The notes: generated by a model not told the origin, from the letters alone. DNA of 38,429 nt from a virus (IMGVR_UViG_3300045921_000952:1-38429); one strand, 5' to 3'. Positions 2,834-36,271 are shown, counted from the first letter of the stretch. Program-made: numbers and translations.

Positions 2834-3179
2834 CCTGGTGTGGTCGCAGTTAAGCGCCGCGTACCGCCAGTTAGACGAGCCGACGGCCAAAAAGGTAGCC
2901 GCTGAACTGTCGCGCTGGCTGGTTGAGGAGGCGCGCAAAAAAGACCTTCCTGACCTGCAAGACCGCCTAACAGACATGCTGCAGCGGATTGAAAAACTGG
3001 CCAGGTCACTGGTATTTAAGCTAGATGGTACGTACGTTTACGTGTGGGCAAATGGCGACGCGCAGGCAACGTTGACCTTGCTTGACCGCGGGTCGGACTG
3101 GTTTGTTGGCCACCCGAATTTAAGCTTAAAACTAGCAAAAATAGTGTTTGATGAACATGAACATTACTCAACTCCTTGA
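2811..3179 (+). CDS. Unknown protein in the neck/tail block
   Basis: A 122-residue protein. Its first half is helical and charged (PTAAKKV-type segments, RWLVEEARKK, DLQDRLTDMLQRIEKL), probably a short coiled coil. The second half is beta-like (TYVYVWANGDAQATLTLLD). It overlaps the genes on both sides (23 and 29 bases) and so is translationally coupled within the late block. No family is recognised; a minor virion or assembly protein is inferred from position only. Confidence 0.6.
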   Translation: MFAAQISDLVWSQLSAAYRQLDEPTAKKVAAELSRWLVEEARKKDLPDLQDRLTDMLQRIEKLARSLVFKLDGTYVYVWANGDAQATLTLLDRGSDWFVGHPNLSLKLAKIVFDEHEHYSTP

Positions 3180-3429
3180 CGAGGTAGACCTGAAAAATCC
3201 TGAGTCCATCCAGCTGGCGGCAAAAAAGTTGCTGGAGTCAGCGATTAAGTTCAACGTTGGCGACAAGGTGACCTTGATTGACGAGCGCGGGGCGCACGGC
3301 TGCCCTTACGTGGGCGCCGTGGGCACGATTAAAGGCCAGTCAAACAAGGGGTCTGGCTGGTATAACGTGGAGTTTGCCGACGGGTCGGTGCACCCCATCC
3401 AGGCCGACTTGCTTGTTCCCATCAAGTAG
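3151..3429 (+). CDS. Small KOW/SH3-like protein
   Basis: A 92-residue protein starting at ATG 3151 (MNMNITQLLDEVD; a second ATG at 3157 is also possible). The C-terminal half, NVGDKVTLIDERG followed by GAVGTIKGQSNKGSGWYNV and FADGSVHPIQADLL, looks like a KOW/SH3-type small beta barrel that could bind nucleic acid or protein. It overlaps the preceding gene by 29 bases and its TAG stop is 3 bases before the next start. Function in the virion or in assembly is unknown. Confidence 0.65.
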   Translation: MNMNITQLLDEVDLKNPESIQLAAKKLLESAIKFNVGDKVTLIDERGAHGCPYVGAVGTIKGQSNKGSGWYNVEFADGSVHPIQADLLVPIK

Positions 3430-4340: not shown

Positions 4341-6539
4341 ATGGCTATTACTGAGCAGACATTTCCAGGCGTTTACGCGAAAGTTGTCGACAACAGCTTC
4401 TTGACCCAGACGTCAAGCCGGTTTCACGCGGGGATCATCGGGGTGGCTGAAAAGGGGCCGTTTGACACCCCCGTCCTGGTGCGCACCTTGAAAGATTTTC
4501 GGCGCGTGTTTGGCCGGTCGCTTGACAACCGCTACATGGCCAACGCCGTGGCCATGCTGGCTAACTTGAGCGACGGCACGGTGTGCGTGCGCGTGGGCCG
4601 GCGCTACGAGCCGGCCGTGACTGACGGGTCAGGCTATAAGGGTGACAACAAGATCGTCACGCAAAACAGCGCGTACGTGGATCAAAACAGCTTCTTGCGC
4701 ATTCGCAGCCCTGGCAAGCGCACGACCGTGGGCGTGAAAGTGCAAAGCAAGAGTGGTAATGAGCTCACGCTTGATAAGCCGCTCGAGGATGACTACAGCG
4801 GGGCGCACATTGACACGTGCCCCATTGGCGGCGATGACGAAACTAACGCGGCCAACGAGGCAGAGTCGTTCCTGTACACGTACCAGTACGGCGAAGCTGT
4901 CAAGGTAACTGGAAACACCGCTGTTGACATTAAGGTTGTGGGTGAGAAAAATAAGTTTGAATTTTTTTACTACACCCCTGACCAGAATGCTAATGGTGAA
5001 GAAATTGTTGTGGGCGACCTGCTTAAACTTGAGCAAGAGGGGCGTTACACGACGCGCGAGGTGTTAGTCAAGGACGTCAAAGGCCCGGTTAAGAAGACCA
5101 TTGACGGGACAGATTACAACGAGTTTAAAGTGCTGCTGCACACGGCAAACGACGCGGAGCTTGGGTACCAAGCGCTGCCGCTGCAAGACAGTTACGATGA
5201 CGCCAAGGCGTACAAGGTGGTCAAAAACCCACAAAATGCGCCAGAAACGAGCCTTTGCGCGCATTTATTGGCGGCGTCAGCCGGCACTTGGGCGAACTCG
5301 GACGGCGCCCGCACTGGGTTAATTGTCAAGGTGGCGCCTGGCTCCAAGCCGGACACCAAAAAGTTGCTGGTGTATGAAAACTCAGCCCTCGTCGAGACCA
5401 TCGACAACTTGAGCGTTGACGCTAACAGCCCTGACTACTACGTGACACGCATCCAGGGCCGCTCAAGCTACATCACCATCTTTCCAGGGTTCACAATTAA
5501 CGCGCACCCGGCGAACACGGTAGACCCGTGGAACTTGAGCGCGGCGAAAAAGATTAACGTCGCTGCCTTTGAGAAAGGCGCCAACGGGCTGACGCCGAGT
5601 GCGCAAGATTTTGTGGGCACGGTCAAGCCTGAAGATGACAGCCAGACAGGCTTGAAAGTCTTTGATGACGAAAACTTAACGGTGGACGTCATCGTGGCGC
5701 CTGACATCTCGACGTTGTTCTCCACCGACTACATGACTATCGCCCAGGAGATGGACCGGATTTGCCGCAAGATCTTCGCGGTAGGGCTGCTTGACGTGCC
5801 GCGCGGCTTAAACGCCAGGGAAGCTATCGACTGGCACAACGGCGAGAAGATGTACGCGTGGGGGTCAGGCAACCAGCGCTACTCGGTCAAGCTTGACACG
5901 CGCAACCTGGCGCTGTGGTGGAACTGGCTGCTTATCGCTGACCCATTTACGGGGGAGAAAAAGTTTGTGCCGCCGACGCTCGGCGTCTTGCGGTGCTTGG
6001 CGGAGACCTTTGACCACTACAAGCCGTGGTACGCGGCCGCGGGCGAGCTGCGCGGCGTCATCCCTGAGGCGTTAGCGGTGGAGTACGCCAAGGTGGCCCC
6101 TGAGACCCGCATGGCCATGTATGGCAACGGCAACAGCGTCAACCCCATCTTGGTGATCCGCAACCGCATCATGAACTTTGGCGAGCGCACCTTGCAGCGC
6201 GCCGAGAGCAAGTTGACCGCCTTCCACAACGTAGTGCTGACCAACTACATCTTGCGCAACTTGTCGGAGATTGGCAGGCGGTTTGTGTTTGACCCGAATG
6301 ACCAGGAGCTGCTAGACCAGTTGAAGCTGGCCATCCGCAGCTTTATGGACTCGGTGAAAAACGACCGCGGCGTGGAAGAGTACTTGCTGGTCTTAGACGA
6401 GACGAACAACACGGCTGAGACCAGAAACCGGCGCGAGGTGATCGTCGACCTGTCGTACATCCCGACTGACGCGGTAGAGCGTATTTACATTAACGCGACG
6501 GTGCGCGAGAGCGGCGCCGAGCTGAACTCAATTCGCTAA
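4341..6539 (+). CDS. Contractile tail sheath protein
   Basis: A 732-residue protein with the ends expected of a sheath subunit: an N-terminal strand after a Pro-Gly turn (FPGVYAKVVDNSFLT) and a C-terminal domain with DHYKPWYAAAGELRG, PILVIRNRIMNFGERTLQ, then LTNYILRNLSEIGRRFVFDP and AVERIYINATVRESGAE. These match the conserved gp18-type core that wraps the tube and contracts. Residues about 100-450 form a variable surface insertion, making the protein slightly larger than T4 gp18 (659 residues). It is followed after 8 bases by the tube gene, the standard order. It starts with a leaderless-type box and no Shine-Dalgarno sequence. Confidence 0.93.
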   Translation: MAITEQTFPGVYAKVVDNSFLTQTSSRFHAGIIGVAEKGPFDTPVLVRTLKDFRRVFGRSLDNRYMANAVAMLANLSDGTVCVRVGRRYEPAVTDGSGYKGDNKIVTQNSAYVDQNSFLRIRSPGKRTTVGVKVQSKSGNELTLDKPLEDDYSGAHIDTCPIGGDDETNAANEAESFLYTYQYGEAVKVTGNTAVDIKVVGEKNKFEFFYYTPDQNANGEEIVVGDLLKLEQEGRYTTREVLVKDVKGPVKKTIDGTDYNEFKVLLHTANDAELGYQALPLQDSYDDAKAYKVVKNPQNAPETSLCAHLLAASAGTWANSDGARTGLIVKVAPGSKPDTKKLLVYENSALVETIDNLSVDANSPDYYVTRIQGRSSYITIFPGFTINAHPANTVDPWNLSAAKKINVAAFEKGANGLTPSAQDFVGTVKPEDDSQTGLKVFDDENLTVDVIVAPDISTLFSTDYMTIAQEMDRICRKIFAVGLLDVPRGLNAREAIDWHNGEKMYAWGSGNQRYSVKLDTRNLALWWNWLLIADPFTGEKKFVPPTLGVLRCLAETFDHYKPWYAAAGELRGVIPEALAVEYAKVAPETRMAMYGNGNSVNPILVIRNRIMNFGERTLQRAESKLTAFHNVVLTNYILRNLSEIGRRFVFDPNDQELLDQLKLAIRSFMDSVKNDRGVEEYLLVLDETNNTAETRNRREVIVDLSYIPTDAVERIYINATVRESGAELNSIR

Positions 6540-6547
6540 GGCGACTT

Positions 6548-7159
6548 ATGGCAAAAATGCAGTACAAGAACCTGTGGGGCTCGCAAAATTCGGGCTTTGA
6601 CCAGCAGCGCGCTGACCTGTTCAAGGTGCAGATTCACCTGCCGAGCATCTTAGGCGGCGTTACCAATTGGAGCAACGACGTTGAGTTTGCGGTCACGCGC
6701 TTTCCGTTCCCTGAGCGCAAGCGCGAGGTGATTGGGATCAAGTACCTTAACTTGACGAACTACGTGCTTGGACCTGACACGCCTGTCGGCCCGATTGAGA
6801 TCCCGGTGCGGTACGCGTTTAACCAAGCTACGGCGCAGTTGCTGGAAAAGTGGCACCAGCTGACGTCAAACCCGCACACCGGCGGCGTGGCGCAGACCAC
6901 GTTGGTGAAGGCCCAAGGCGAGTTTTGGTGGCTGGTGCCGAACATGGCGGACCAGGAGCGCATCCCGCAAGCTGAGACGGGCACCGCGATGCGCCCTGGC
7001 CTGGTCTACAAGCTTGAAGGTTGCCTGATCACGGGGCTGAAGCCGAGCAACGCGGACATGTCAGCCACTGGCGACAGCGCGCTGGTCATGCTTGACTTCA
7101 CCTTGAACGTTGACCGCTACTACCCGTTAAACGTTAACGCGATGGTCATCAAGCCTTAA
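6548..7159 (+). CDS. Tail tube protein (gp19-like)
   Basis: A 203-residue protein directly after the sheath gene. It has the size and beta-rich pattern of T4-type tube subunits, including RADLFKVQIHLPSILGG, EFAVTRFPFPERKREVI, IEIPVRYAFNQATAQLLEKW and a C-terminal strand MLDFTLNVDRYYPLN. Hexamers stack to make the inner tube through which DNA passes. Synteny with the sheath makes this call secure. The start is 8 bases after the sheath stop with no clear ribosome-binding site. Confidence 0.88.
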   Translation: MAKMQYKNLWGSQNSGFDQQRADLFKVQIHLPSILGGVTNWSNDVEFAVTRFPFPERKREVIGIKYLNLTNYVLGPDTPVGPIEIPVRYAFNQATAQLLEKWHQLTSNPHTGGVAQTTLVKAQGEFWWLVPNMADQERIPQAETGTAMRPGLVYKLEGCLITGLKPSNADMSATGDSALVMLDFTLNVDRYYPLNVNAMVIKP

Positions 7160-8723: not shown

Positions 8724-9452
8724 TTATTCTCCCAGCATCTTGAGGACAGCAGGCAAGTTGCGCTCGTAAACGTGAGCAGAGTGCGCGAAGTGCCGGTAGG
8801 CGCCCACTTTTAACGTCGGATACTGCGGCAAAAGCTGCTGGCGCATGCGCAATAAGAGCGAGCAAAAGAAGGGGATGTCATAGACTGCCCCGAAGTAGTA
8901 GTCGTTGGAGCGCATGCAGATGGTGAAGTTCAACATGTCGTCGCGGATTAAAAAGATGCCGTGCATCGTGCACGGCACGTCTTTGTTGCCGCGCCAAAGG
9001 TGCTCGCGCTTGTTGAACTTCAAGACGGCCTGGCGGGTTTCCTTGTCTTCTAAGAGGGCGAGCTTTGCCCACTCCCACGGGCTTCGCGCGACATTCTCAA
9101 ACGCGGGGTTGCCGCAGCTCTTGTCAGCCCAGATCAAGTAGCCGTAGGCCGAATTTATGGTGCCGTCTGGGTTGCTTAATGGCTCCCAAAACTTGCTGGC
9201 GTGGGCGAAGTCAGCCGCGCGCCGCGTGGTTGACTCGTAAAGTTCAAGCTCCTTCAGGGTGTAGTCCCTGATCTTCGCGTTTCGCTCGGGGTCTTTGGTT
9301 TGGATGGGCTCAGCCGACGGTTGTCGGATGGTTAGCAGAAAGTCAACTTTTTCGCGAATAGGCTGGCCGCGCGGCGCTGACTGGAAGTCAGGGTGGTAGA
9401 CAATCTCATGCAGCGCGGCCAGGTAGGCCTCATGTGTGGTGTCAAACGTCAT
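8724..9452 (-). CDS. dCMP hydroxymethylase-like member of the thymidylate synthase family
   Basis: A 242-residue protein when started at ATG 9452, which overlaps the kinase stop by 11 bases; T4 dCMP hydroxymethylase is of similar size. Thymidylate synthase landmarks are present in order: TINSAYGYLIW (about 98-108), RSPWEW and SRQAV-like TRQAVLKF, catalytic Cys161 in DVPCTMHGIF, MRSNDYYFG (180-188), and AHVYERN (226-232). At the position where thymidylate synthases have Asn (..GLPFNI..) this protein has Asp192 (GAVYDIPFF), the change that favours dCMP over dUMP in T4-type hydroxymethylases. I infer production of 5-hydroxymethyl-dCMP or methyl-dCMP. Activity on dUMP cannot be excluded. Its neighbour is a dNMP kinase. 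Confidence 0.78.
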   Translation of the reverse strand: MTFDTTHEAYLAALHEIVYHPDFQSAPRGQPIREKVDFLLTIRQPSAEPIQTKDPERNAKIRDYTLKELELYESTTRRAADFAHASKFWEPLSNPDGTINSAYGYLIWADKSCGNPAFENVARSPWEWAKLALLEDKETRQAVLKFNKREHLWRGNKDVPCTMHGIFLIRDDMLNFTICMRSNDYYFGAVYDIPFFCSLLLRMRQQLLPQYPTLKVGAYRHFAHSAHVYERNLPAVLKMLGE

Positions 9453-10395
9453 GCGACATAAGAACTTGGCTGAGCTGGCGCTTGAAGCCCTGGCGGTCAA
9501 AACGCCGCCCGTACTGCGGGTGCGGCAGCTCGACGCACTTGACGCCGGCGCGCCTTAACGTATTGGCGGCCTGCTTGCCTAAGCCGATGACAGTGAGCTC
9601 TGGCTTGAAGGCCAAGATCTCCTTAAACTCGTCGCCGTCATTGGCGTTGGTCCACATGCCAAGCTCGGTGGCAAAGTTCAAGCTGTCAAGGCACGCGGCC
9701 AGAAACAGGCTGCAATTTCCGTGCTCGTAAAACGGCCAGCGCACTTGGCGCAACTTTGGGTTGACACGGTCGCCGACAAATAAAAACTTTGCCGCCACGA
9801 TGTGGCCTAGCACGTTGTGCGTGGAAAAGTTCAGGGCGCTTGGAAGTTGAAGTTGGCGCCAAAGCTGCAGCCTATCGACGATGACCTGGCAGTAGTCGTC
9901 AAGCTTGTCGCCGTAAGCCTCAATGGAGTACTCCACGACGTCAAAGCGGCCGCGCCGGTTAAAGTGCCGCACAAACGCGCGGTAGCTGGCTGAAAGTTGC
10001 TGGATCTTGTCGTGGTAAAGCTCGTCGCGCACCTGGCGAAGCTGGGCGTGCCGCCTGGCCAGGTCGTCAGCGGGGCTGTTGCAAAAGATGTAAAGCGCCG
10101 CGTGCTTTAGCAAGACGCGGTCAAGCAGCTGGCCTAGGTGCGGGAAGCGCGTGCCGCCGCGGTACAGCTGGCCGTAAATTAACTCTGACGGCCAAAGGCG
10201 GTCTAAGATGACAAGCTTGCCCGTGTCGGCGAGCTTTAAGGCCTTGCGCAACAGCGCCGTGTGGTAGTAAAAGATCTTGTCGCACCAGCGGTAGTCCGCG
10301 TGCAAGACATGGGCGTTAAACTGGCGTTGAAACGCGGCCGCGAGCGTGGTCTTGCCTGTGCCGTCAGGGCCTTCAATGACGATGACACCAGACAT
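9442..10395 (-). CDS. dNMP kinase fused to a uracil-DNA-glycosylase-like domain
   Basis: The N-terminal half (1-180) is a thymidylate-kinase-type P-loop kinase: VIEGPDGTGKTT (residues 7-17), LVILDRLWPSE (DR motif, about 61-71) and a helical lid region ending near 150. The C-terminal half (about 203-317) resembles the UDG superfamily: FLFVGDRVNP (205-212), WPFYEHGNCSLFLAACL, MWTNAND, ELTVIGLGKQAANTL and a terminal ELPHPQY. The order and spacing of GD, N, LG and HP elements fit that fold, though no Fe-S cysteines are seen. The kinase probably phosphorylates a modified dNMP made by the adjacent hydroxymethylase. The glycosylase-like part could edit or modify bases. TAATG overlap with the upstream methyltransferase shows coupling. 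Confidence 0.72.
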   Translation of the reverse strand: MSGVIVIEGPDGTGKTTLAAAFQRQFNAHVLHADYRWCDKIFYYHTALLRKALKLADTGKLVILDRLWPSELIYGQLYRGGTRFPHLGQLLDRVLLKHAALYIFCNSPADDLARRHAQLRQVRDELYHDKIQQLSASYRAFVRHFNRRGRFDVVEYSIEAYGDKLDDYCQVIVDRLQLWRQLQLPSALNFSTHNVLGHIVAAKFLFVGDRVNPKLRQVRWPFYEHGNCSLFLAACLDSLNFATELGMWTNANDGDEFKEILAFKPELTVIGLGKQAANTLRRAGVKCVELPHPQYGRRFDRQGFKRQLSQVLMSHDV

Positions 10396-12222: not shown

Positions 12223-14583
12223 ATGGCTGAGTCGTCATTGCGCTATCTGAAAGTTGACTTTGAAAGTCACCGCGACGCGCTTATTCAGCGGGTCAGGTCG
12301 CGTTGGCCGGGAATTTGGAACGACTTTGCGTCAAGCTCGGTGGGCTTGATGCTCATTGACCTGATCGCGTGGTCAACGGCGACACTGGCCTTTTTAATCA
12401 ACCGCGCGGCAGCTGAAAACTTTATCCCGACGATGACCCTGCGCGAGTCGGCCGTGCGGCTTGGCGCCCTGGTGGGCTACCAACTTCGCGGCCCGGTGCC
12501 GGCAAGCGTGGCGTGCGAGGCCACGTTGTCGTCGCCCGCGGCCTCAGATGTCACGATCGCCAAAGGCACGCTGGTGCGGCTGGGCGAGGGCAACTTGCCC
12601 TTTGAGGTAAGCCGCGACTACGTGATCCAAGCGGGCAAGCTGTCGCCTGAAACCCGCGTCGTGGTCATCAGCAGCAGCTTGACAGGCGCCAAGGTCTTGT
12701 CCACTAACGTGGTCCTTACTGGCGGCTCGCCGTACGTGGACCTAATTGACTCGTCAATTAACTTGTTGCACTACGTGCAGGCGGGCCAGGCGTTCCGCCA
12801 GTTGCCGTCGCCGACGGCAGGCGTGGAAGAGATCTATACCATCAAGTCGGTCGAGTCCGCGCCGGGCGCGCTGAGCTACAACCGCCTGGTGATCACGCCG
12901 CCGTGGCACGGGCCGACAACTGACAGCACCGTGCCAGAGGGGTCAACCACCGAGTGCGCCGCGGAGGTCTACGACCGGCGCATCTTGCTGGTGCAAGGCC
13001 AGACGTTAAGCGACCAGTTTGTCTCGCCGTCGGGCGAGGCGGCTAACTTTTCTGTCAAGTTAAGCCACACGCCCGTCATTGAGGGCTCGGTGCTGGTCAC
13101 AGTGAACGGCGAGCGCTGGGAGCAGCTGAGCTCCTTGGCCGTGGCTGACGCCGCCACGCGCGGCTATGAGGTGCGCACGCTGCCCTCTGGCCAGACTGTC
13201 GTGCTGTTTGGCGACGGCACGTTTGGCCAGCTTATACCGCAAGACGCGGCCATTACGGTCACGTACCGCGTGGGCGGCGGCACGGCAGGCAACATCCCAG
13301 TGGGCACGGTCAACGTGTCGGTGGTCGGCACGAGCCTGAACGGCCTGGTCATCGTGCCGCTGCGCAACGACACGTCTGGCGGGCAAGGCGGGCGCGAGCC
13401 TGAGAGCCTTGAAGAGGCCCGCGTCAACATCCCTTACTTTGTGCGCACCAACGACCGCGCGGTCACGCTTGACGACTACCAGACACTGGCCCAAAATTAC
13501 AAGCACCCGCAGCACGGCTCGGTGGCCTACGCGCGGGCGTCAGTGCGCACTGACAACGCGCTGCTCGAGGGCAACGTGGTGGTGGTCTACGCGTGGACCA
13601 CCGGGGCGTCTGGCGGCTTGGAGCGCCTGTCACTGCCGCTAAAAGAGGCCTTGCGCGAGTACCTTCAAACTAAGGCCGTGGGCACGGACTACGTCGTGGT
13701 GGCCGACGGCACCACGCGCCCGGTGCCGGTGAGCTTGAGGTTTAAGGCGCTGGCAGGCTTTGACGTTGACCAAGTAAAAGCTGACGTGCACAAGGTTATC
13801 CGTGACTTTATCTTGCGGCTCAGGCCAGGGCAGCCGGTGGTGCACTCTGACTTGCTGCGCGCCCTTGACGAGGCCTACGGCGTGGACGCGGTCACGATGG
13901 CCACGCCGACGTCAGACCTGACAACCTCGACCCCGACAGAGTTGTTTGTCCCGCCAGACGACGAGTTTGTCTACACGCTGCCGCGCGTGCCCGGGGTGCT
14001 GTCTGACGAGTACATCATCCAATTTCCAGTCGCCCCGCTGGCTGCCTGGTCATTTCGGGCCTTTTTAGGCATGTCAGAGCTTGCCGTGGTGCCCGACGTT
14101 GAACCGGGTTACGCGCGCTTGCTCGGTACTGGCCTCCTGTCAACCTATAAGTCTAGGGTCAACCTCCTTAACGGAAAGGCACTAATTTACACGCGGTCTA
14201 GCGAGGACTTTAAGGTCGCGCTTAACTACGTGGACGGGTACAACCGCGAGCGCGTGGTCAACGTCTACGTGGGCTATACTGGCGACAACTCCAGCGCGAA
14301 GCGCCAAGAGATAAGAAACGCGCTAAAGGCGTGGGGCAACAACCTGGCAGTGGGGTCAGCCATTTACGCCGGCAACCCGGCGCGCGTGGCGACAGAGTAT
14401 GACACCCAGGGCATCTTGGTGTCAAAAAGCAACGTCGCGGCGGTAGTTGCGGCCGTGCCCGGCGTGACCGCGGTAACCCGCGTCGCGCTTGACACCCCGG
14501 CGAACTCAGACTTTAGGATTACCGCGACTGACTTTGAGCTCCTGAAGCTTGGGCTGATCGTGCTGAACAACCGGTCAGATTAA
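12223..14583 (+). CDS. Baseplate wedge protein (gp6 / baseplate J-like)
   Basis: A 786-residue protein whose N-terminus has the gp6/J-type signature: WNDFASSSVGLMLIDLIAW, then FLINRAAAENFIPTM and LRESAVRLGALVGYQLRG. Further on are the strand pairs of the baseplate J core (VTVNGERWEQLSSL, TVVLFGDGTFGQLIPQ, VTYRVGGGTAGNIPVGTV) and VTLDDYQTLAQNYKHP. In T4, gp6 forms the ring joining wedges around the hub. The protein is longer than T4 gp6 (660 residues), and the extra C-terminal domain (about 620-786) includes a second LDGY-type fold (NYVDGYNRERVVNVYVGY). The stop overlaps the convergent small gene by 4 bases. Confidence 0.85.
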   Translation: MAESSLRYLKVDFESHRDALIQRVRSRWPGIWNDFASSSVGLMLIDLIAWSTATLAFLINRAAAENFIPTMTLRESAVRLGALVGYQLRGPVPASVACEATLSSPAASDVTIAKGTLVRLGEGNLPFEVSRDYVIQAGKLSPETRVVVISSSLTGAKVLSTNVVLTGGSPYVDLIDSSINLLHYVQAGQAFRQLPSPTAGVEEIYTIKSVESAPGALSYNRLVITPPWHGPTTDSTVPEGSTTECAAEVYDRRILLVQGQTLSDQFVSPSGEAANFSVKLSHTPVIEGSVLVTVNGERWEQLSSLAVADAATRGYEVRTLPSGQTVVLFGDGTFGQLIPQDAAITVTYRVGGGTAGNIPVGTVNVSVVGTSLNGLVIVPLRNDTSGGQGGREPESLEEARVNIPYFVRTNDRAVTLDDYQTLAQNYKHPQHGSVAYARASVRTDNALLEGNVVVVYAWTTGASGGLERLSLPLKEALREYLQTKAVGTDYVVVADGTTRPVPVSLRFKALAGFDVDQVKADVHKVIRDFILRLRPGQPVVHSDLLRALDEAYGVDAVTMATPTSDLTTSTPTELFVPPDDEFVYTLPRVPGVLSDEYIIQFPVAPLAAWSFRAFLGMSELAVVPDVEPGYARLLGTGLLSTYKSRVNLLNGKALIYTRSSEDFKVALNYVDGYNRERVVNVYVGYTGDNSSAKRQEIRNALKAWGNNLAVGSAIYAGNPARVATEYDTQGILVSKSNVAAVVAAVPGVTAVTRVALDTPANSDFRITATDFELLKLGLIVLNNRSD

Positions 14584-14963
14584 AATATGAGCGTCAGCAC
14601 CTTTTGCGCCGTGTTGAGCTCTACCTTTTTGGGGTAGATGCTCGAGTGCAAAAACGGCGCGTCAGACTCTACCTTGACTTGCCACCCGGCGGTGTCGCGC
14701 GGGGTCCAGGCCAGCGAAAAGTCAGTCTCCTCGCCGGTCTCAACGTGGCTGAGCGTGACGTTGACGTTGACCCGCTTGATGTAGATGTCAAAGCTCTTGA
14801 CCCCGTAGCTGCGCGCGTCGGTGACAAGTTCCCACTCCACGGTCACCTCAGGGCTGTCACTGACTTCCAGCATGTTGTTGCCGTAAAAGTCCACGTCGCT
14901 GACCAGCGTGTAAAAAGTGTTCGCCTCTTCAATAAGCTGTTTCACCCTAAACGCGTTCATCAT
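14580..14963 (-). CDS. Unknown small protein among baseplate genes
   Basis: A 127-residue protein with two adjacent ATG codons (14963 and 14960). It starts MMNAFRVKQLIEEANTFY and then shows alternating hydrophobic strands (VEWELVTDARSYGVKSF, DIYIKRVNVNVTLSH), suggesting a beta-sandwich. It is convergent with the wedge gene and divergent from the gene at 14989. TATTTA lies 4 bases before the first ATG as a possible -10. A virion component is plausible from location; no homologue is recognised. Confidence 0.55.
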   Translation of the reverse strand: MMNAFRVKQLIEEANTFYTLVSDVDFYGNNMLEVSDSPEVTVEWELVTDARSYGVKSFDIYIKRVNVNVTLSHVETGEETDFSLAWTPRDTAGWQVKVESDAPFLHSSIYPKKVELNTAQKVLTLIF

Positions 14964-17688: not shown

Positions 17689-17776
17689 TGGTGCCGGTGG
17701 CGGGACTTGAACCCGCACGACGTTTAACGGTCGCAGGATTTTAAGTCCTGTGCGTCTGCCATTCCGCCACACCGGC
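17689..17776 (-). tRNA. tRNA-Leu (anticodon TAA), CCA encoded
   Basis: An 88-nt class II tRNA. The 7-bp acceptor stem GCCGGTG pairs with CACCGGC, followed by discriminator A and an encoded CCA (17691-17689). The anticodon arm is CAGGA-CTTAAAA-TCCTG with anticodon TAA, the long variable arm is typical of Leu, and the T arm is GCGGG-TTCAAGT-CCCGC. The 5' half overlaps the last 18 codons and stop of the helicase gene (17724). It probably supplies decoding of TTA codons and must be processed from the helicase transcript. Confidence 0.95.
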
Positions 17777-19805
17777 CTACCGTCAAGAATTGCTCGACCA
17801 AGCGGCTGGGAAGCTGGCCGCGATAGCGGAGCGCGATGCGCCGCCCGAGCCTGGCTTGCTGCGGCGTCAGCCAAGGCAAGCTGGCCAAAAACTTGCCGAG
17901 CTTGGTGTCAAACTTGTTAAAGCCGGCGCCGTCAAGCGACCTGGCGCCGTCGCACTGGTCAGCCAAAAGCCGCAATGCTTCGTGGACCGCGTTAACTTGG
18001 GTGTCAGTCAAGCTTTCAACGGGCTCGTCAACTTCCTTTGCGCTTGCCGCGCGCGTTGAATTGCCGGTTAACGTTGGCGCTGGCGTGGGCTCAACGTGAA
18101 ATATCGCGCTGCCGATGACAGCTTGCGCCATGGCAAGCTCAAGCTCGCGCGTGCCCACGGGGGCGTCAAGCGCCTTGTCAATGATCTCTTGCTTTTCAAT
18201 GAGCCGCTTGGCGATGGTCACGTCTAGCGAGTCGTCAAACACCACGTGCTCTACCAGGATAGACTTTTGCTGCCCGACACGGTGGGCGCGGTCTTCACAC
18301 TGGGTCATGTTGGCTGGCACCCAGTCAAGTTCGGCAAAGACCACGACATCTGCCGCGGTGAGCGTCAAGCCGTAACCCGCGGCGTGGATGCCGCCGATAA
18401 ACACGCGGCACGCCGGGTCAGTTTGAAAGCGGTCAACTTGGCGCATGCGCTCAGAAGTTTCGACGCCGTCTTCTACCACCACCTTCGCGCTGGTTTGGCC
18501 GGTAACCACGGCGGCTTCAGGAAACGCCGCGCGGTACGCGTCGATGACGTCCAGGTGGTGCGCGAACAAGAGCACCTTTTGGCCTGCTTCAAGGCATTCC
18601 TGCACGTGCTCCACGACGTGGGGCACCTTGGCTAAGGCAACTTCTTTGGCCATGTCTGCCATGCGCTCAAAGGCGACAGCCGTCTCGGCGCTCAACGCCT
18701 GCACCGCTTCGCGGTAGTCTTCGTCGCTGCCGCTGGACTTTGCCACTTCTACGCGCGCCTGGGCTTCAAGCAACTGCTCTTCAAGCTCCAGCCAAAGTTG
18801 CTGCTGGCGCGCCAGCATGGGCTTAACTTCGTCGCCCGCCGGGATGACGATAACCCGGCGGCGCTTGGCAGGCAGCTCGGCCAGCACGTCCTTTTTAAGG
18901 CGACGGACCATGACCGTGGAGCGCAGGCGCCGCTGCAGCTCGTCAAGGTTGCTGGCGCCGCTAAAGTTCCAAAATCTGCCGTCGTAGTACGCGTTGCAGT
19001 AGCGCTTGGCAAACGAGAAAAACTTGGGCCACTCTGCTGGCCGAAGCCAGTTTAAGATCGGCCACAACTCTGCCGGGCGGTTAGGCATCGGCGTGCCGGT
19101 CATGGCCAGCTTCTTGCGCGCCTTGATCTGGTAGACCGCGCGCGTGCGGGCGGCTTTCGGGTTTTTGACATAGTGGGCTTCGTCTACCACTAAAAGGTCG
19201 TACTCGCCAAGCGCGCTGGCAAACTTGGCGACAATGTCGTAGTTGATGACCACGACGTCAGTGTCAGGCAGCGGTTTGTGGCTCACCGCGACGCCGACGG
19301 TCATGGGGCGCACCAGCCACTTTTCAAGCTCGCGGTACCAGTTAATCTTAAGTGTGTTCGGGCAGACGACGCAAACTTTTTTAAGTGACGGGTCGGCGTT
19401 GATTAAGCCGATGGCCTGGATGGTTTTTCCTAACCCCATCTCGTCGGCCAGCAAGTTGGTGTCGTGCTTGAGCAAAAATTCGATGCCCGCCTTTTGGTAG
19501 GGCAAGTAGGCTAGCCCGTCAGGCGCGGGAAGCTCAAGTTGGCTGTCGACGGCGCTGCTGGCCTTCAAAGTTTGAAGCTCGCGCGCAGCTTGCTCTGGCG
19601 GCAACGGGCGCCAGTAGTAGACCACCCACTGCCCGTCCTTTTGGTTGAGCGCGACCCCAAGTTGCTTCAGCTCGTCTTTGTGCTTGCGCCAGAGCGTCCA
19701 AAAAGTCGAGTTAGGGTTGGCGCACTGCAAAAGCCGCGGCCCGCGGCTTGTTTCGACGCGCTTTGGCGTTGACCATGGCAGCAAGTTTTCAAGTTTGACA
19801 TCCAT
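17724..19805 (-). CDS. SNF2/HepA-family DNA helicase-translocase
   Basis: A 693-residue superfamily 2 enzyme. Motif I is LLADEMGLGKTIQA (about 118-131), Ia VCVVCPNTLKINW, II LLVVDEAHYVKN (DEAH, about 205-216), III LAMTGTPMPNRPAELW, a SNF2-type RRLKKDVLAELPAKRR, and C-terminal motifs V/VI FIGGIHAAGYGLTLTAADVVVF and EDRAHRVGQ. It resembles annealing or remodelling helicases (SMARCAL1-type) used for fork regression or recombination, replacing T4 UvsW functionally perhaps. The final residues GGMADAQDLKS are encoded by the tRNA-Leu gene, so the native tail may have been replaced when the tRNA inserted or the gene may simply end within it. Confidence 0.88.
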   Translation of the reverse strand: MDVKLENLLPWSTPKRVETSRGPRLLQCANPNSTFWTLWRKHKDELKQLGVALNQKDGQWVVYYWRPLPPEQAARELQTLKASSAVDSQLELPAPDGLAYLPYQKAGIEFLLKHDTNLLADEMGLGKTIQAIGLINADPSLKKVCVVCPNTLKINWYRELEKWLVRPMTVGVAVSHKPLPDTDVVVINYDIVAKFASALGEYDLLVVDEAHYVKNPKAARTRAVYQIKARKKLAMTGTPMPNRPAELWPILNWLRPAEWPKFFSFAKRYCNAYYDGRFWNFSGASNLDELQRRLRSTVMVRRLKKDVLAELPAKRRRVIVIPAGDEVKPMLARQQQLWLELEEQLLEAQARVEVAKSSGSDEDYREAVQALSAETAVAFERMADMAKEVALAKVPHVVEHVQECLEAGQKVLLFAHHLDVIDAYRAAFPEAAVVTGQTSAKVVVEDGVETSERMRQVDRFQTDPACRVFIGGIHAAGYGLTLTAADVVVFAELDWVPANMTQCEDRAHRVGQQKSILVEHVVFDDSLDVTIAKRLIEKQEIIDKALDAPVGTRELELAMAQAVIGSAIFHVEPTPAPTLTGNSTRAASAKEVDEPVESLTDTQVNAVHEALRLLADQCDGARSLDGAGFNKFDTKLGKFLASLPWLTPQQARLGRRIALRYRGQLPSRLVEQFLTVGRCGGMADAQDLKSCDR

Positions 19806-21467: not shown

Positions 21468-22292
21468 ATGGCGCTTAAGACAAACATGAAAGACTTGACG
21501 CCGTCGCGTTTGCGGCTGCGTCGTGAGATTACTTTGCTGTCGCACGGCTTTTCGTGCCCAGACGCGTTTCCAGATGGAAGAATTGTGGTTTACCCGTGGG
21601 ACGCCGACGTTGACGCGTGGGCAGTTGAACGCGCCGGCCGCGGCCTCAAAAATTTCATGTGGGACCTGCTGGCCAAGGTGTGCGACCTGAACGGCTGCCC
21701 GCTCGAAAAGTTTGTCGTGGGCGACGTCTCCACTGTCTTGCTGGTAAGCCGGGCGCTGGCGCGCGCCAACAAGGTGATGTACGTGGCCAAGTGCCCGGAG
21801 TGCGGGCACGAGCACCAAGATGTCATCACCGTGCCTGACGAGCTTGAGCGCGTGGGTGAAAAGAGCGCGGACTACCCGGGCTACGACGTCATCACCTTGC
21901 CTGACTGCAAGGACGTGGTCAAGATTCGGCCGCTGCTGATCGGCGACTTTATGGCCGTTGAAAATCGGCCGGCGCCGGCGCGCCAAAAGTACCCTGACCG
22001 GCTGTGCCGCACGCTAATTCCAGTCGTGAGCGTCAACGACACGACGCCTGACTCCTTTGACGAGCTGGCCGCGTGGTACGAGGCGCTTACGCCGGCGGAC
22101 AAGCAGTATTTTGTCACGCAGCAAGACGCGCTTTACCCGCACTTGAACACAGACTTAGACTGGACGTGCGACGCGTGCGGCCACAAGTTTGTGGTGCCGC
22201 TGGTGTTTAACGACAAGTTTTTTCGTGAGCGAGGCGGAGACCTCAGTGGAACTTCACTGGCGGGAGATGGCAAGGGCCGCCTGGGGGGCTAA
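21468..22292 (+). CDS. Baseplate hub-assembly (gp26/gp51-like) protein with zinc ribbon
   Basis: A 274-residue frame starting MALKTNMKDLTPSRLRLRRE, two bases after the glycosyltransferase stop. It contains a Zn-ribbon formed by AKCPECGHEHQD (about 106-117) and WTCDACGHKFVVPL (about 225-238). The general plan, a helical N-terminus plus Cys pairs before a terminal FNDKFF, resembles T4-type baseplate hub assembly proteins. After the T6 run at 22218-22223 the frame becomes Gly/Arg-rich and unnatural, whereas the +1 frame continues well (see 22225-22386). The true product may extend into that frame. Family assignment is moderate. Confidence 0.5.
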   Translation: MALKTNMKDLTPSRLRLRREITLLSHGFSCPDAFPDGRIVVYPWDADVDAWAVERAGRGLKNFMWDLLAKVCDLNGCPLEKFVVGDVSTVLLVSRALARANKVMYVAKCPECGHEHQDVITVPDELERVGEKSADYPGYDVITLPDCKDVVKIRPLLIGDFMAVENRPAPARQKYPDRLCRTLIPVVSVNDTTPDSFDELAAWYEALTPADKQYFVTQQDALYPHLNTDLDWTCDACGHKFVVPLVFNDKFFRERGGDLSGTSLAGDGKGRLGG

Positions 22293-30221: not shown

Positions 30222-31268
30222 CTAGTCGTCGTGTTCGTCGTCGTGTTCGTCGTCGTGTTCGTCGTCGTAAATGTAAAATTCGCCAGCGCGCTTCGGGTCG
30301 AGTATACTGACCATCTGCTCGTAAGCTTCTTGCGCGGTCCTGACTGACCGCTTGCGCTTTTTGGCAATGGCCGCGATGCTGTCCGGGTCAAGGTTGCTGC
30401 GCTCGATGTCGCGGAAAGTCTCGTAATCTTCTTTAATCTGCGCCAGCTGCGCGAGCGTGGGGATCTTGAGCCGCTTGCCGCCAAAAACTGCGATGATCTT
30501 TTTGAGCTGGTCCCACGTGATGATGTTCAGCAGGTCAGGCAGCAGGGTGTAAGAGTAGGCTTGCACAAACAAGTCCTGTTCTGTAAGCGGCACGTAGGCT
30601 TGCTGGTAAAGCTCGTTCCGCAGCGCGACCAGCGCCCAGTTGTAAAAAAACTTAGCTTGCTCTAGCGAAAGCCCGTAGGCGTAGGCAGCCGCGCGAATAG
30701 ACGCGTTGCGCGAGTGGTTTTCCTCCAGCACGCAGGCAATGAGGTAGCGCAACGCGCCAATCTCTTGCGGGTCGCCCCACCGGCAGGTGAGCTGCTTGAG
30801 CTTTTGGTTCAGCGCCTCGTAGGCGTCGTGCCGGTCAACCTCGTGCTCCTCAAAGCCGTAAAACTTTTCCAGGTTGTCGCTGGTAACGTGGACGCGGCGC
30901 CGAAATTGTACGGTCTTCGCGACTTCAGACCGAAACGCGTTTTTGGCGCACTTTGAAAACCACGAAAACAGCTTGCCCTTTTTTGGCTTCCAGTAGAGCA
31001 GCCAGTTAACTACCTTTTCCTGCGCCGCTGAGATTAAGACCGGCAGCTCGACCGTGCGGTGGAAGTCTTCAAACTGCGCCAGCCGCTCAAACATGGCGGT
31101 TGACTCCACGACAATCTCCTCTAGGATAGGCATGGCCTCTTTGTGCCTGCCTTTTGCTGTCAGCTCTTTCCAGCGCAAAGCTAACTCTGTCAGCTTTGTC
31201 GCTGGAAAGATATGTTCTCCTAGTGGAGGCTTTGTGTCAACAGGCTTGTCAGCGGGTTTGTCAGGCAT
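30222..31268 (-). CDS. Sigma-factor-like protein A (gp55-like)
   Basis: A 348-residue protein in which residues about 80-135 read VVNWLLYWKPKKGKLFSWF, SKCAKNAFRSEV, then a basic segment QFRRRVHVTSDNL. The W-x-PKKGK-FSWF-K-A-N pattern is that of region 2 in T4-type late sigma factors and their cyanophage relatives. Later helices (for example RNASIRAAAYAYGLSLEQAK) could form a winged or HTH module, and SIAAIAKKRKRSVRTAQEAY a terminal HTH. The C-terminus has the acidic repeat DDEHDDEHDDEHDD from 12-bp tandem units. It is adjacent to sigma-like protein B in an operon driven by an early-type promoter. Confidence 0.6.
   Translation of the reverse strand: MPDKPADKPVDTKPPLGEHIFPATKLTELALRWKELTAKGRHKEAMPILEEIVVESTAMFERLAQFEDFHRTVELPVLISAAQEKVVNWLLYWKPKKGKLFSWFSKCAKNAFRSEVAKTVQFRRRVHVTSDNLEKFYGFEEHEVDRHDAYEALNQKLKQLTCRWGDPQEIGALRYLIACVLEENHSRNASIRAAAYAYGLSLEQAKFFYNWALVALRNELYQQAYVPLTEQDLFVQAYSYTLLPDLLNIITWDQLKKIIAVFGGKRLKIPTLAQLAQIKEDYETFRDIERSNLDPDSIAAIAKKRKRSVRTAQEAYEQMVSILDPKRAGEFYIYDDEHDDEHDDEHDD
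30225..30266. repeat. 12-bp tandem repeat at the 3' end of sigma-like gene A
   Basis: Units of GTCGTCGTGTTC repeat three times plus a partial copy, encoding DDEH repeats at the protein C-terminus. Confidence 0.88.
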
Positions 31269-34212: not shown

Positions 34213-34419
34213 ATCCGCGCTTTTAATCGCGCTAATCTTGGCGGTAACTTGAGAAGCCTGGCGGTCTGCACGGTTAAAGTAAGACGTAAAGACGGCAGTC
34301 AAGATGGCCGCGATAGCCTCAGGCGTCAAGATCTTAAAGCACGCGCAGTAGGCAAAAACACCGCCAGCGATGATGGTCAACCACAGGCGGCCTGAAAATA
34401 GCTTGTACCAGGGAGTCAT
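34204..34419 (-). CDS. Small membrane protein, holin-like
   Basis: A 71-residue protein with two hydrophobic helices, LWLTIIAGGVFAYCACFKIL (about 12-31) and EAIAAILTAVFTSYF (about 34-48), followed by a polar tail RADRQASQVTAK. This hairpin is typical of holins or antiholins. A separate holin candidate is encoded at 7539-7742, so one of the two could be an antiholin. It lies 4 bases after the overlap with the acidic-repeat protein gene. Confidence 0.6.
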   Translation of the reverse strand: MTPWYKLFSGRLWLTIIAGGVFAYCACFKILTPEAIAAILTAVFTSYFNRADRQASQVTAKISAIKSADLP

Positions 34420-34910
34420 ATAGTATTGTCGTTAACTTCGCCAGTCAGCGTGTATGGCAAAACTTCACCGTATTTCGTCTCGATGATTTCGTCTACAAAC
34501 CGAAAGATCCCAGTTTGGTCACGGCTTACCTCAGCCTTGGACTTTTTGCCGTTGGCAATTACGTTAACCGACATTACTTCCGCGTCGGGCTTCACGTCAA
34601 TGGTATACTTCAAAGAAAACTTGCGCGGCTTGTTGCCAAAAGTCAAGTCGCGGACCAACGCAAACAGCCCCATTATCTCTTCCCACTCAGGCGGGTTTGT
34701 AGCTTTAATGACATCCGGGTCAATGACAAACTTTTGACCTTTAACCGTGACCGTGATCACACTCGAAGCTGTGTCTTCCACGCCGTCTTCCACGCCGTCT
34801 TCCATGTCACCTTCCACGTCGGCGTCTTCCAAGTCGGCAGTTTCCAGACGCGCGTCCTCGTCTTCTAGCAAGAAGTTGACTAACTGCTCTACTTTGTCGG
34901 TGTTTTTCAT
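34416..34910 (-). CDS. Putative capsid-targeted internal protein 1 (LLE motif)
   Basis: A 164-residue protein starting MKNTDKVEQLVNFLLEDEDA, followed by a very acidic repeat region (DADVEGDMEDGVEDGVEDT) and a beta-rich domain (SSVITVTVKGQKFVIDPDVI, RKFSLKYTIDVKPDAEVMSV). The QLVNFLLE stretch recurs in the genes at 35435 and 35912. LLE fits the L-x-E site cleaved by T4-type prohead proteases, so this may be a capsid-targeting peptide. No database family is recognised. TAGTTA lies 12 bases before the ATG on the minus strand. Confidence 0.55.
   Translation of the reverse strand: MKNTDKVEQLVNFLLEDEDARLETADLEDADVEGDMEDGVEDGVEDTASSVITVTVKGQKFVIDPDVIKATNPPEWEEIMGLFALVRDLTFGNKPRKFSLKYTIDVKPDAEVMSVNVIANGKKSKAEVSRDQTGIFRFVDEIIETKYGEVLPYTLTGEVNDNTI
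34773..34808. repeat. 12-bp tandem repeat in the acidic region
   Basis: GTCTTCCACGCC occurs twice and once more with two changes, encoding the EDGV repeat of the 34416-34910 protein. Confidence 0.8.
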
Positions 34911-34922
34911 AAATTTTCTAGG

Positions 34923-34928
34923 TAACTA
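34923..34928 (-). promoter_or_regulatory. TAGTTA box, minus strand
   Basis: CTGTAGTTA on the minus strand, 12 bases before ATG 34910. Spacing is longer than at the other boxes, so the assignment is weaker. Confidence 0.35.
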
Positions 34929-34931
34929 CAG

Positions 34932-35294
34932 CTAAACCGGGTTGGCGTCTAACTTTTCAAGCAGCTCCAGTGATTCCACAAGGGTCATGCCAGAAAACGG
35001 CCACTCACACGCGCCCAAGACGTTGCCGAGGTCAGGCGGCAACTCGACAAACCACGCGGGGCGCCGGGTGTAAAGCCGCACCAGCCAGGCGGCGCAAGGA
35101 TATTCGCCTTCTGGGTCAACCTCTTCGAGGCGCTCCGCGACAACTGGGTAGTGGTCAGCCAGCCAGCTGTCACCTGTCGGGTCAATGCGCCGCACCAGCA
35201 CCATGTGGGTCACCTCCACGTCAAAGGTGCCGTCGCCGGCAGGCTTGCCAGGGAAATTGTTGAAGCGCGAGCAATGTCGGTAGTTGAGCGTCAT
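34932..35294 (-). CDS. Unknown protein downstream of the tRNA-like RNA
   Basis: A 120-residue protein started at ATG 35294 (MTLNYRHCSRFNNFPGKPAG). An upstream in-frame extension is only the tRNA-like sequence. It contains FDVEVTHMVLVRRIDPTGDS, a Trp/Tyr-rich middle (CAAWLVRLYTRRPAWFVEL) and an acidic Leu-rich C-terminus (LVESLELLEKLDANP). No family is recognised. It begins 5 bases after the CCA of the tRNA-like element, suggesting a common transcript. Confidence 0.55.
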   Translation of the reverse strand: MTLNYRHCSRFNNFPGKPAGDGTFDVEVTHMVLVRRIDPTGDSWLADHYPVVAERLEEVDPEGEYPCAAWLVRLYTRRPAWFVELPPDLGNVLGACEWPFSGMTLVESLELLEKLDANPV

Positions 35295-35299
35295 AGCCG

Positions 35300-35384
35300 T
35301 GGCGGGTCGCCCAGGATTTGAACCTGGTCTTCGCCGCCGGCAACATGCGCGGCGGCGCGTGCTTCCGTTTGACACTAGCTCCCC
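35300..35384 (-). ncRNA. Aberrant tRNA-like element with encoded CCA
   Basis: An 85-nt element: 5' GGGGAGC, TA, D arm GTGT-CAAACGGAA-GCAC, a perfect T arm CCAGG-TTCAAAT-CCTGG (35327-35311), 3' GCGACCC, discriminator G and CCA (35302-35300). The acceptor pairs at 5 of 7 positions with two central mismatches. In place of a normal anticodon arm there is an 8-bp GC stem (CGCCGCCG/CGGCGGCG) with a 10-base loop CGCATGTTGC. GGTATATAAAGT directly precedes it as a promoter-like -10. It may be a decayed tRNA or a retargeted tRNA mimic. Confidence 0.6.
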
Positions 35385-35396
35385 ACTTTATATACC
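35385..35396 (-). promoter_or_regulatory. -10-like GGTATATA before the tRNA-like RNA
   Basis: GGTATATAAAGT on the minus strand ends directly before the 5' end of the tRNA-like element, a distance compatible with a start at or near its first base. No -35 match to TTTACA is seen at 16-17 bases. Confidence 0.5.
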
Positions 35397-35422
35397 GCGG
35401 CTTTTCATTTCGCGACGTGGTG

Positions 35423-35428
35423 TAGTTA
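35423..35428 (+). promoter_or_regulatory. Late-type TGTAGTTA box
   Basis: TGTAGTTA followed by 6 bases and ATG 35435, identical in spacing to the boxes at 12211 and 14977. Confidence 0.6.
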
Positions 35429-35434
35429 CAACGT

Positions 35435-35755
35435 ATGTTTACACGCAGCAAACACGCGAGCGGCATCAGCGAAACTGAGCGCAAAGTAGCACAGCTGGTC
35501 AACCGCCTATTGGAAGCTGACGAGTTTGAAACTGACAAGGACCCTGAACTTGCCGACAGCGGCGAGTCAGAGATCCTTAAGCTCCTTGAAAACAAGGAGA
35601 AGGTCATCCAACTTCTCAAAATTTGGCTTGGCCAAGTTACGCGCGAGGCCAGAAACAGCGACGACCCTGGACATGTCGACAAGTCCATGTTAGCTTACCA
35701 CCTCCGGTCTATCTTAAATGAGTATAAGAAGCTGGCCGGCCGGACGCTTAAATAG
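35435..35755 (+). CDS. Putative capsid-targeted internal protein 2 (LLE motif)
   Basis: A 106-residue helical protein: MFTRSKHASGISETERKV, then AQLVNRLLEADEFETDKDPE, and helices ESEILKLLENKEKVIQLLKI and KSMLAYHLRSILNEYKKLAG. AQLVNRLLE(A/D)(D/E) parallels the N-terminal segments of the proteins at 34416 and 35912, preceded here by about 16 residues. A leaderless late-type box precedes it. Function unknown beyond the shared motif. Confidence 0.6.
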   Translation: MFTRSKHASGISETERKVAQLVNRLLEADEFETDKDPELADSGESEILKLLENKEKVIQLLKIWLGQVTREARNSDDPGHVDKSMLAYHLRSILNEYKKLAGRTLK

Positions 35756-35769
35756 TTCATACTGCTTTT

Positions 35770-35949
35770 ATGACTGTGGCCCCCGTTTCAGGCCGCGCAG
35801 TGTCCTCCCCGTTAAGCAAGAAACTCCGCTCTCTGCGCGCTCGCGCGGTCAAGTCAGGCATGAAGTTATTAAGCGCTGACGAGGTGCTGGAAACTGTAAG
35901 GCAGCGGCGCAATGGATCTGAAAAAGTCAACTATGAAAAAGTTAATTGA
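35770..35949 (+). CDS. Small basic protein, 59 residues
   Basis: The frame from ATG 35770 to TGA 35947-35949 encodes MTVAPVSGRAVSSPLSKKLR, a basic stretch SLRARAVKSGMKLLSADEVL and ETVRQRRNGSEKV. The LSADEVLETVRQRRNG end resembles small helical phage or antitoxin-type proteins that place a short helix before an Arg-rich tail. It overlaps the next gene by 38 bases and follows the previous gene by 14 bases, fitting an operon. Confidence 0.5.
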   Translation: MTVAPVSGRAVSSPLSKKLRSLRARAVKSGMKLLSADEVLETVRQRRNGSEKVNYEKVN

Positions 35950-36271
35950 CCTCCTGCTCGAAGACATTGAGTGCGCTAGCCCCACGAGGAGCACTGCCAA
36001 CAACGTGATTGAGATCGTGCCGTCCAAGCGCTTGGAAGGGCGCTGGGAAGTATACACAGGAGAAAGCCGGGCTTACGAGTGCGCCGACCTGAAAGCCGCC
36101 ATTGAGTACGCCGTGCGGCAGTGGTCGCGTTATCCGTTTACGGAAATTACCGTGATCACGCCTGAAGCCGAAGGCGTCGAAAGCAGGCGCATTAGCATAA
36201 AGTCGCGCACGGCTGACGAAGCCCAGCGCGACGTGCAAAAAAATTGCGACGACTGCGGCGACGCTGACTAG
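35912..36271 (+). CDS. Putative capsid-targeted internal protein 3 (LLE motif)
   Basis: A 119-residue protein, MDLKKSTMKKLIDLLLEDIE; a start at the second Met (35933) would place KKLIDLLLE at the N-terminus as in the related proteins. After a Thr/Ser linker it has a beta-alpha-beta pattern (RLEGRWEVYTGESRAYECAD, LKAAIEYAVRQWSRYPFTEI) and ends with KNCDDCGDAD. It overlaps the small basic gene by 38 bases. The shared N-terminal motif with two nearby genes is the main clue. Confidence 0.6.
   Translation: MDLKKSTMKKLIDLLLEDIECASPTRSTANNVIEIVPSKRLEGRWEVYTGESRAYECADLKAAIEYAVRQWSRYPFTEITVITPEAEGVESRRISIKSRTADEAQRDVQKNCDDCGDAD

Follow-up and report, generated by a model that had tools for sequence, protein, structure and literature searches.

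A recurrent terminal peptide in an uncultured contractile-tailed phage and its relatives, probably a capsid-targeting sequence

Introduction

Why should small proteins with unrelated bodies, encoded close together by an uncultured phage, share a short peptide near their N-termini? The question is raised by IMGVR_UViG_3300045921_000952:1-38429, an entire virus record of 38,429 bases (the window, by which we mean this whole stretch) whose gene content is that of a contractile-tailed phage. An initial annotation had pointed to an LVNxLLE-type motif near the N-termini of three otherwise unlike proteins and had proposed that these may be internal head proteins, comparable to those of T4, that are packaged and injected with the DNA of a phage that modifies it. 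The three open reading frames (ORFs) exist as described, one on the minus and two on the plus strand, and their bodies are mutually unrelated by BLAST. We examined the peptide, hereafter the tag, in the window and in a set of larger related contigs, and our probable answer, drawn from sequence comparison, is that the tag is a capsid-targeting sequence (CTS), likely to be processed, by which late proteins would be loaded into the prohead core and then injected. The features on which the question turns are as follows (a slash in a peptide marks the predicted cut).

34416..34910, minus strand: tagged protein 1, 164 amino acids (aa), with an N-terminal tag helix, an acidic linker and an alpha/beta body (from the ORF and a single-sequence model); motif QLVNFLLEDED
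34863..34910, minus strand: tag of protein 1, MKNTDKVEQLVNFLLE, with a cut predicted behind LLE; fits the consensus of 54 seed tags
34923..34929, minus strand: GTAGTTA late-promoter-like element upstream of protein 1
35422..35428, plus strand: GTAGTTA late-promoter-like element upstream of protein 2
35435..35755, plus strand: tagged protein 2, 106 aa; motif QLVNRLLEADE
35483..35515, plus strand: tag core of protein 2, KVAQLVNRLLE (from the ORF and the 54-seed consensus)
35912..36271, plus strand: tagged protein 3, 119 aa; motif KLIDLLLEDIE; an alternative start is possible at Met codon 8 (MKKLIDLLLED)
35912..35962, plus strand: tag of protein 3, MDLKKSTMKKLIDLLLE

The tag in the window

Of the 50 proteins of 60 aa or longer that were called in the window, three have the pattern [LI][VI][ND]xLLE within their first 32 residues, as compared with a mean of 0.0025 proteins when these residues are shuffled within each protein, and none of 20,000 shuffles reached three; in the other 10,323 residues of the window proteins there are 0 occurrences. 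This pattern was picked after the proteins had been seen, and the test in relatives described below is independent of the window. All three tags contain the (L/I)xE site as LLE, its E being residue 16, 27 and 17 of proteins 1, 2 and 3, respectively, with the cut predicted directly behind it.

No significant family match to proteins 1, 2 or 3 was found in Pfam or PHROGs, a search of IMG/VR gave no homologues of proteins 1 and 2, and protein 3 had no relative among the relatives fetched. The AlphaFold2 single-sequence model of protein 1 (mean pLDDT 61) places a helix at residues 4-18, within a low-confidence region (residues 1-31, and again 39-48), and a more ordered body from residue 49; a Foldseek comparison of this model with PDB and BFVD gave nothing below an E value of 0.001. 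The model of protein 3 has a helix at residues 3-18 followed by an alpha/beta body, with a mean pLDDT of 55 that is too weak for a fold search.

The initial annotation had also suggested looking for other LLE-type N-termini, and this search added one protein and possibly a second:

14580..14960, minus strand: fourth tagged protein, 126 aa, tag MNAFRVKQLIE/EA, MNAFRVKQLIEEA; orthologues in three relatives carry other tags
3151..3429, plus strand: possible fifth member, MNMNITQLLDE/V, with a second site AAKKLLE/S at codons 27-29

By its sequence the protein at 14580-14960 clearly belongs to the tagged set. Its family reads RVKQLIE/EA in the window, QIVRRLLGE/S in relative G008, ALATAARLLE/TED in G011 and AVAIAAKLLE/NED in G010; to judge from these sequences, the tag is retained on one body while the tag sequence turns over. 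Orthologues of 3151-3429 retain (L/I)xE at most of both places (IINE/S, IITE/A, IISE/S, ILGE/D, LME/S), the exceptions being QIVDQ and LLGGD, and we regard this protein as a possible fifth member.

The tag across the relatives

Relatives were reached through a 28 kb contig (L003/L007, G002) whose tail tube is 79% identical to that of the window and which also carries the end of a major capsid protein of the gp23 type (PF07068). With this capsid segment 55 more contigs were found, most of them 76-86% identical there and some longer than 200 kb. Eight of them (120-238 kb) were taken; genes were called with our own ORF caller, and all protein ends were tested against a wider amphipathic pattern, [LIVM][VLIAM]xx[LIVM][LMI](x)E, with residues 2-26 shuffled 2,000 times per genome as the null. 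N-terminal matches greatly exceed the shuffle expectation in G006 (21 versus 1.7), G010 (17 versus 1.0), G005 (16 versus 1.5), G012 (11 versus 1.3), G008 (9 versus 0.7) and G011 (9 versus 0.9), and in each of these genomes 0 of 2,000 shuffles reach the observed count. The same matches stand at the shuffle expectation in T4, SP-15, LIS04 and Colly_1, which are phages with S77 proteases.

After filtering, 94 tagged proteins are listed over the eight relatives, a few of which are probably there by chance. The 54 seed tags give the consensus [KRNT]-A-[KE]-Q-[IL]-V-[ND]-R-L-L-E, behind which acidic residues follow. Copies of the tag are found at C-termini as well (for example G006:127879-128517, which ends in SRAQRIVTNLLES) and inside longer proteins, with three copies in G005:198925-200478. 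Near the capsid gene of G002, the motif is C-terminal in an 89-residue protein that ends in SLVDALVNQLLDD and in a protein with DUF3008 and sigma70-region-2 domains that ends in RLSLLVNQLLEG. Behind LLE a second short element recurs within single genomes, namely PDE[VL]xPKxYL in G006, DDFDxKDL in G005 and FDA[RK]xY[IL] in G008, and the tag may include this element as its second part.

The likeness among tags lies in the protein. The 18 tags of G006 share a mean of 51% of their residues; the 40 nucleotides upstream of the tagged genes are 27% identical (random pairs of genes, 25.5%), and at the residues that tags share, codons agree in 45% of cases as compared with 35% expected from usage. Since the tag residues are alike while upstream DNA and codons stay near expectation, selection acts on the protein. 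The tag is also variable in its occurrence on one family: a HAD-type phosphatase carries it in G005 and G006 and lacks it in other relatives.

The (L/I)xE signature and the prohead protease

In T4 the prohead protease gp21 cuts after (L/I)xE, and gp21 itself has LIE-9 (PMC9026906). The end of the tag matches this specificity by sequence: of 98 tags, 87 have L or I at P3, while P2 ranges over L, G, I, S, D, T, N, A and M, and A, D or S predominate at P1'. The hydrophobic frame and the E are built into the search pattern, so that the informative features are the range at P2 and the preference for E, which follows the hydrophobic frame in 45 of 83 N-terminal and 21 of 180 internal cases (Fisher p 9e-13).

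A prohead protease, which the initial annotation had proposed to look for, was not found in the window and was found in its relatives. One Peptidase_S77 gene is present in each of 21 records, comprising 15/15 relative contigs and 6/6 cultured phages; the protease of L018 matches PF03420 (7.5e-16) and the T4 gp21 structure 5jbl (4e-6), with its GLLEHP and SRGYGSL segments aligned. As the window and the nearest contigs have no protease gene, the protease link rests on phages whose capsid is approximately 85% identical to that of G002. The N-termini of the clade proteases conserve LxE with a variable middle residue (YLVEG, YLAEG, YLIEG, QLLEG, ILLED), and these proteases are joined to a long C-terminal half that resembles a scaffold (head blocks L016-L068). 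In this half [LI]xE occurs 158 times as compared with 69 expected after shuffling, whereas the spaced controls [LI]xxE (60 versus 69), [LI]E (74 versus 69) and [LI]xD (18 versus 26) are not enriched and [VA]xE is mildly so (152 versus 114); these counts come from 17 related sequences, so that the spaced controls weigh more than the shuffle count.

Gene order adds a positional argument. In T4, genes 67 and 68 are small and adjoin the protease gene. Their products, gp67 and gp68, have a role in the prohead core (PMC9026906). In the relatives, the genes directly upstream of the protease-scaffold and capsid genes start with the tag in an LGE form: STIKRILGE/A, DIIKLILGE/A, AIVAKLLGE/A, PHLKKLLGE/S, PYLKRLLGE/A, TTVRRVLGE/S, ALIAQVLGE/D and DLISTLLGE/T. 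A tag at the gp67/gp68 position is a matter of gene order and not of homology, and is the strongest positional argument for a head-core meaning.

Candidate cargo, a late-promoter-like element and possible DNA modification

Most of the 85 tagged proteins scanned with Pfam have no family; the remainder include NUDIX plus thymidylate kinase, ParE-like, 2'-5' RNA ligase/2H phosphoesterase, phage lysozyme, PDZ and HAD-PNKP proteins. In four phages, DUF3008 proteins (PF11450) have the tag, or a variant close to it, near their C-terminal end; clade members lie near the capsid gene, and the tag does not depend on the domain. In G002 the protein at L007:15636-16448 (minus strand), close to the major capsid gene, has DUF3008 and a sigma70 region by Pfam; the DUF3008 protein at L038:10594-11490 (plus strand) is sigma70-like by sequence likeness, and the tag of window protein 2 aligns to its C-terminal tag region (RRVARLVNMLLESEEV). 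The DUF3008-sigma protein is, from its domains and tag, a candidate packaged sigma factor. No mention of DUF3008 was found in the literature searched.

In addition, G005:112251-115823 (L085:12251-15823, minus strand) encodes a multi-domain tagged protein of 1190 residues with an internal LLEADEDDF tag. It has a metallopeptidase-like HELTH motif towards its C-terminus, and the C-terminally tagged G006:127879-128517 has HELVH (neither with Pfam support). An ADP-ribosyltransferase-like series in the same G005 protein (FYHGTS...EGL...GIYVTTS), reminiscent of T4 Alt, had no Pfam support at an E value of 0.01 and is not used here.

A late-promoter-like GTA[GTA]TTA lies just upstream of 21 of 100 tagged genes as compared with 166 of 1871 others (p 3e-4), and GTAGTTA precedes two of the three tagged genes of the window listed first. 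The related form GTA[GT]TTA is found approximately 11-13 bases before the start of 7 of 53 window genes (0.2 expected) and of 30 of 323 genes in G006 (1.2 expected), with 18 elements standing at exactly -11, and at such genes a pyrimidine stands directly before the start codon. The element looks like a T4-late-type promoter that would yield leaderless mRNA.

That the phage modifies its DNA, as the initial annotation supposed, is plausible. The product of window 8724-9452 (minus strand) matches CMP hydroxymethylase (1e-19) and T4 dCMP hydroxymethylase (6e-10), which suggests hydroxymethylated or hypermodified cytosine in the phage DNA, and on account of this match it is possible that some cargo is directed against modification-dependent restriction. 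The adjoining ORF at 9442-10395 (minus strand) is nucleotide-kinase-like, as read from its P-loop only.

The remaining landmarks of the window are those of a contractile tail and of late transcription:

4341-6539: tail sheath
6548-7159: tail tube
12223-14583: baseplate wedge
21468-22292: baseplate hub
30222-31268: late transcription activator

No capsid, portal or prohead protease gene was found within its 38,429 bases, the head block lying outside the fragment. A tRNA-Leu(taa) gene at 17689-17776 (minus strand) overlaps the 3' end of a helicase-like ORF (17724-19805), and a tRNA-like stretch near 35300-35375 had no support from ARAGORN or Rfam.

Discussion

We propose that the tag forms an amphipathic helix, mostly N-terminal and otherwise C-terminal or at a domain junction, which would bind the prohead core; its docking site would lie on the scaffold half of the fused, gp21-type protease or on the core partners of this protein. 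Any late protein bearing the tag would thereby enter the head ahead of shell closure. The serine protease of the gp21 type would then probably cut after (L/I)xE and set the body free within the head, and from there the body would be injected with the DNA. Once injected, the cargo may aid host takeover or protect modified DNA.

The closest parallel is T4, in which IPI, IPII, IPIII and Alt likewise carry a short terminal peptide with spaced hydrophobic residues on unrelated bodies, ending in (L/I)xE, and in which a Peptidase_S77 protease is present, as it is here in the relatives; T4 Alt has propeptides at both termini (PMC9026906). The tag and the T4 sequence MKTYQEFIAE/A are both hydrophobic at P3 and P7, and the propeptides of T4 internal proteins (IPs), at 10-19 residues, are comparable in length to those predicted for window proteins 1 and 3, that of protein 2 being longer. 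The systems also differ. Neither a comparison with the T4 CTS (MKTYQEFIAEA) nor searches of Pfam and PHROG revealed sequence homology of the window tags or proteins to the T4 CTS or IPs; T4 tags a handful of proteins, whereas up to approximately 20 per genome are tagged here, C-terminally and internally as well; the predicted clade cargo, unlike that of T4, is partly enzymatic; and T4 genes 21 and 22 are separate, whereas the clade protease is fused to its scaffold.

Two further systems offer likenesses. In SPN3US and phiKZ many head proteins, among them ejection proteins, are cut after Glu by a distant gp21 relative (gp245/gp175), but the SPN3US site is AxE (PMC10052503), the propeptides are mostly long and the capsid lineage is different. 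None of the window tags ends in AxE, their endings being LLE or LIE, and in this comparison the counts over 98 tags are no independent test, as the pattern demands L, I, V or M at P3. In P1, the first 30 residues of DarB are enough to direct a foreign protein into the head, and the cargo is anti-restriction (PMC9024508); P1 lacks a separate scaffold, and its head system is of another kind. No description of such tags in uncultured phages was found in the literature searched.

The T4-like idea of the initial annotation finds partial support, with terminal enrichment, a protease in every relative searched, tags at head-core positions, LxE in the protease N-terminus and a late-promoter-like element in its favour, and differs from T4 in its details, the sequences being unlike those of T4 and the copies being C-terminal or internal as well. 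Several observations weigh against capsid targeting with processing. Enrichment is weak in the divergent G013 and G015, where 55 and 117 of 2000 shuffles reach the observed count. The P1' residue is often D, and the protease gene is absent from the window and the nearest relative contigs. The N-termini of the major capsid proteins have no conserved (L/I)xE, reading RLAET in most and LAST, LANT or LART in others. Window proteins 1, 2 and 3 are acidic (calculated pI of 4.3, 6.3 and 4.9, respectively), whereas T4 internal proteins are basic, a property typical of these proteins and not required of packaged ones. Finally, C-terminal copies such as LLVNQLLEG and IVTNLLES, each at the very end of its protein, would lose approximately one residue on cutting, and for this reason cutting may not be the point at C-termini.

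This last observation also serves the reading of head targeting without processing, in which the helix would dock on the core or the inner shell and stay on, LxE being a docking surface: where C-terminal copies end right after LLE, a cut would remove almost nothing. Variants with D in place of E (LLDD, LLDL, LLDS) point the same way, for in the T4 CTS targeting depends mainly on residues 4 and 7 and processing on residues 8 and 10, and Asp-10 variants are targeted and left uncut (PMC9026906); by analogy, the LLD variants here would belong with these. A protease site, by contrast, predicts the strong E at P1 and the free P2 that are seen, with LLE, LGE, LAE, LSE and LNE interchanging, and we consider it unlikely that processing is lacking altogether.

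Still less probable, in our judgement, is a docking peptide for a complex other than the head (late transcription, the sliding clamp, terminase or portal, or a membrane site) that would recruit proteins in the infected cell. The late sigma factor of T4 and its co-activator bind the clamp through terminal hydrophobic peptides, and the C-terminal tag of the sigma70-region-2/DUF3008 protein and the presence of ordinary enzymes among the cargo would suit such a role, which nevertheless leaves the (L/I)xE site, the tags at head-core positions and the LxE of the protease N-terminus unexplained.

Two other explanations are very improbable. Duplication of a gene start as a cassette (promoter and leader together with the first codons), with no protein function, would account for the GTAGTTA that some tagged genes have in common, but not for upstream DNA as dissimilar as between random genes, codons near usage expectation, or C-terminal and internal copies. 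Chance, or a general leaning of phages to leucine-rich amphipathic N-terminal helices, might be invoked for a motif that is short and, in the window, chosen after the fact, but neither shuffles of the same N-termini nor the four other S77-protease phages show the excess.

Returning to the capsid-targeting reading, we tentatively extend it, as a possibility short of a firm expectation, to a large uncultured gp23-type clade: one portable terminal tag, set at either end or between domains, may serve there as a loading code for 10-20 or more different proteins per virion, including DUF3008-sigma factors, nucleotide-processing enzymes and multi-domain proteins that bear several tags, and thus as the basis of an injected takeover kit whose cargo list could be read from sequence. 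If the capsid-targeting reading is true, the injected repertoire of uncultured phages would be predictable from sequence, where otherwise such knowledge comes solely from the virion proteomics of a few phages in culture, and many candidate early host-takeover and counter-defence proteins would come into view, including a packaged sigma-factor-like protein. A tag functional at either terminus would help in loading proteins into phage heads, and the idea, drawn from T4, of capsid-targeting sequences as an evolvable mechanism would become testable across many genomes.

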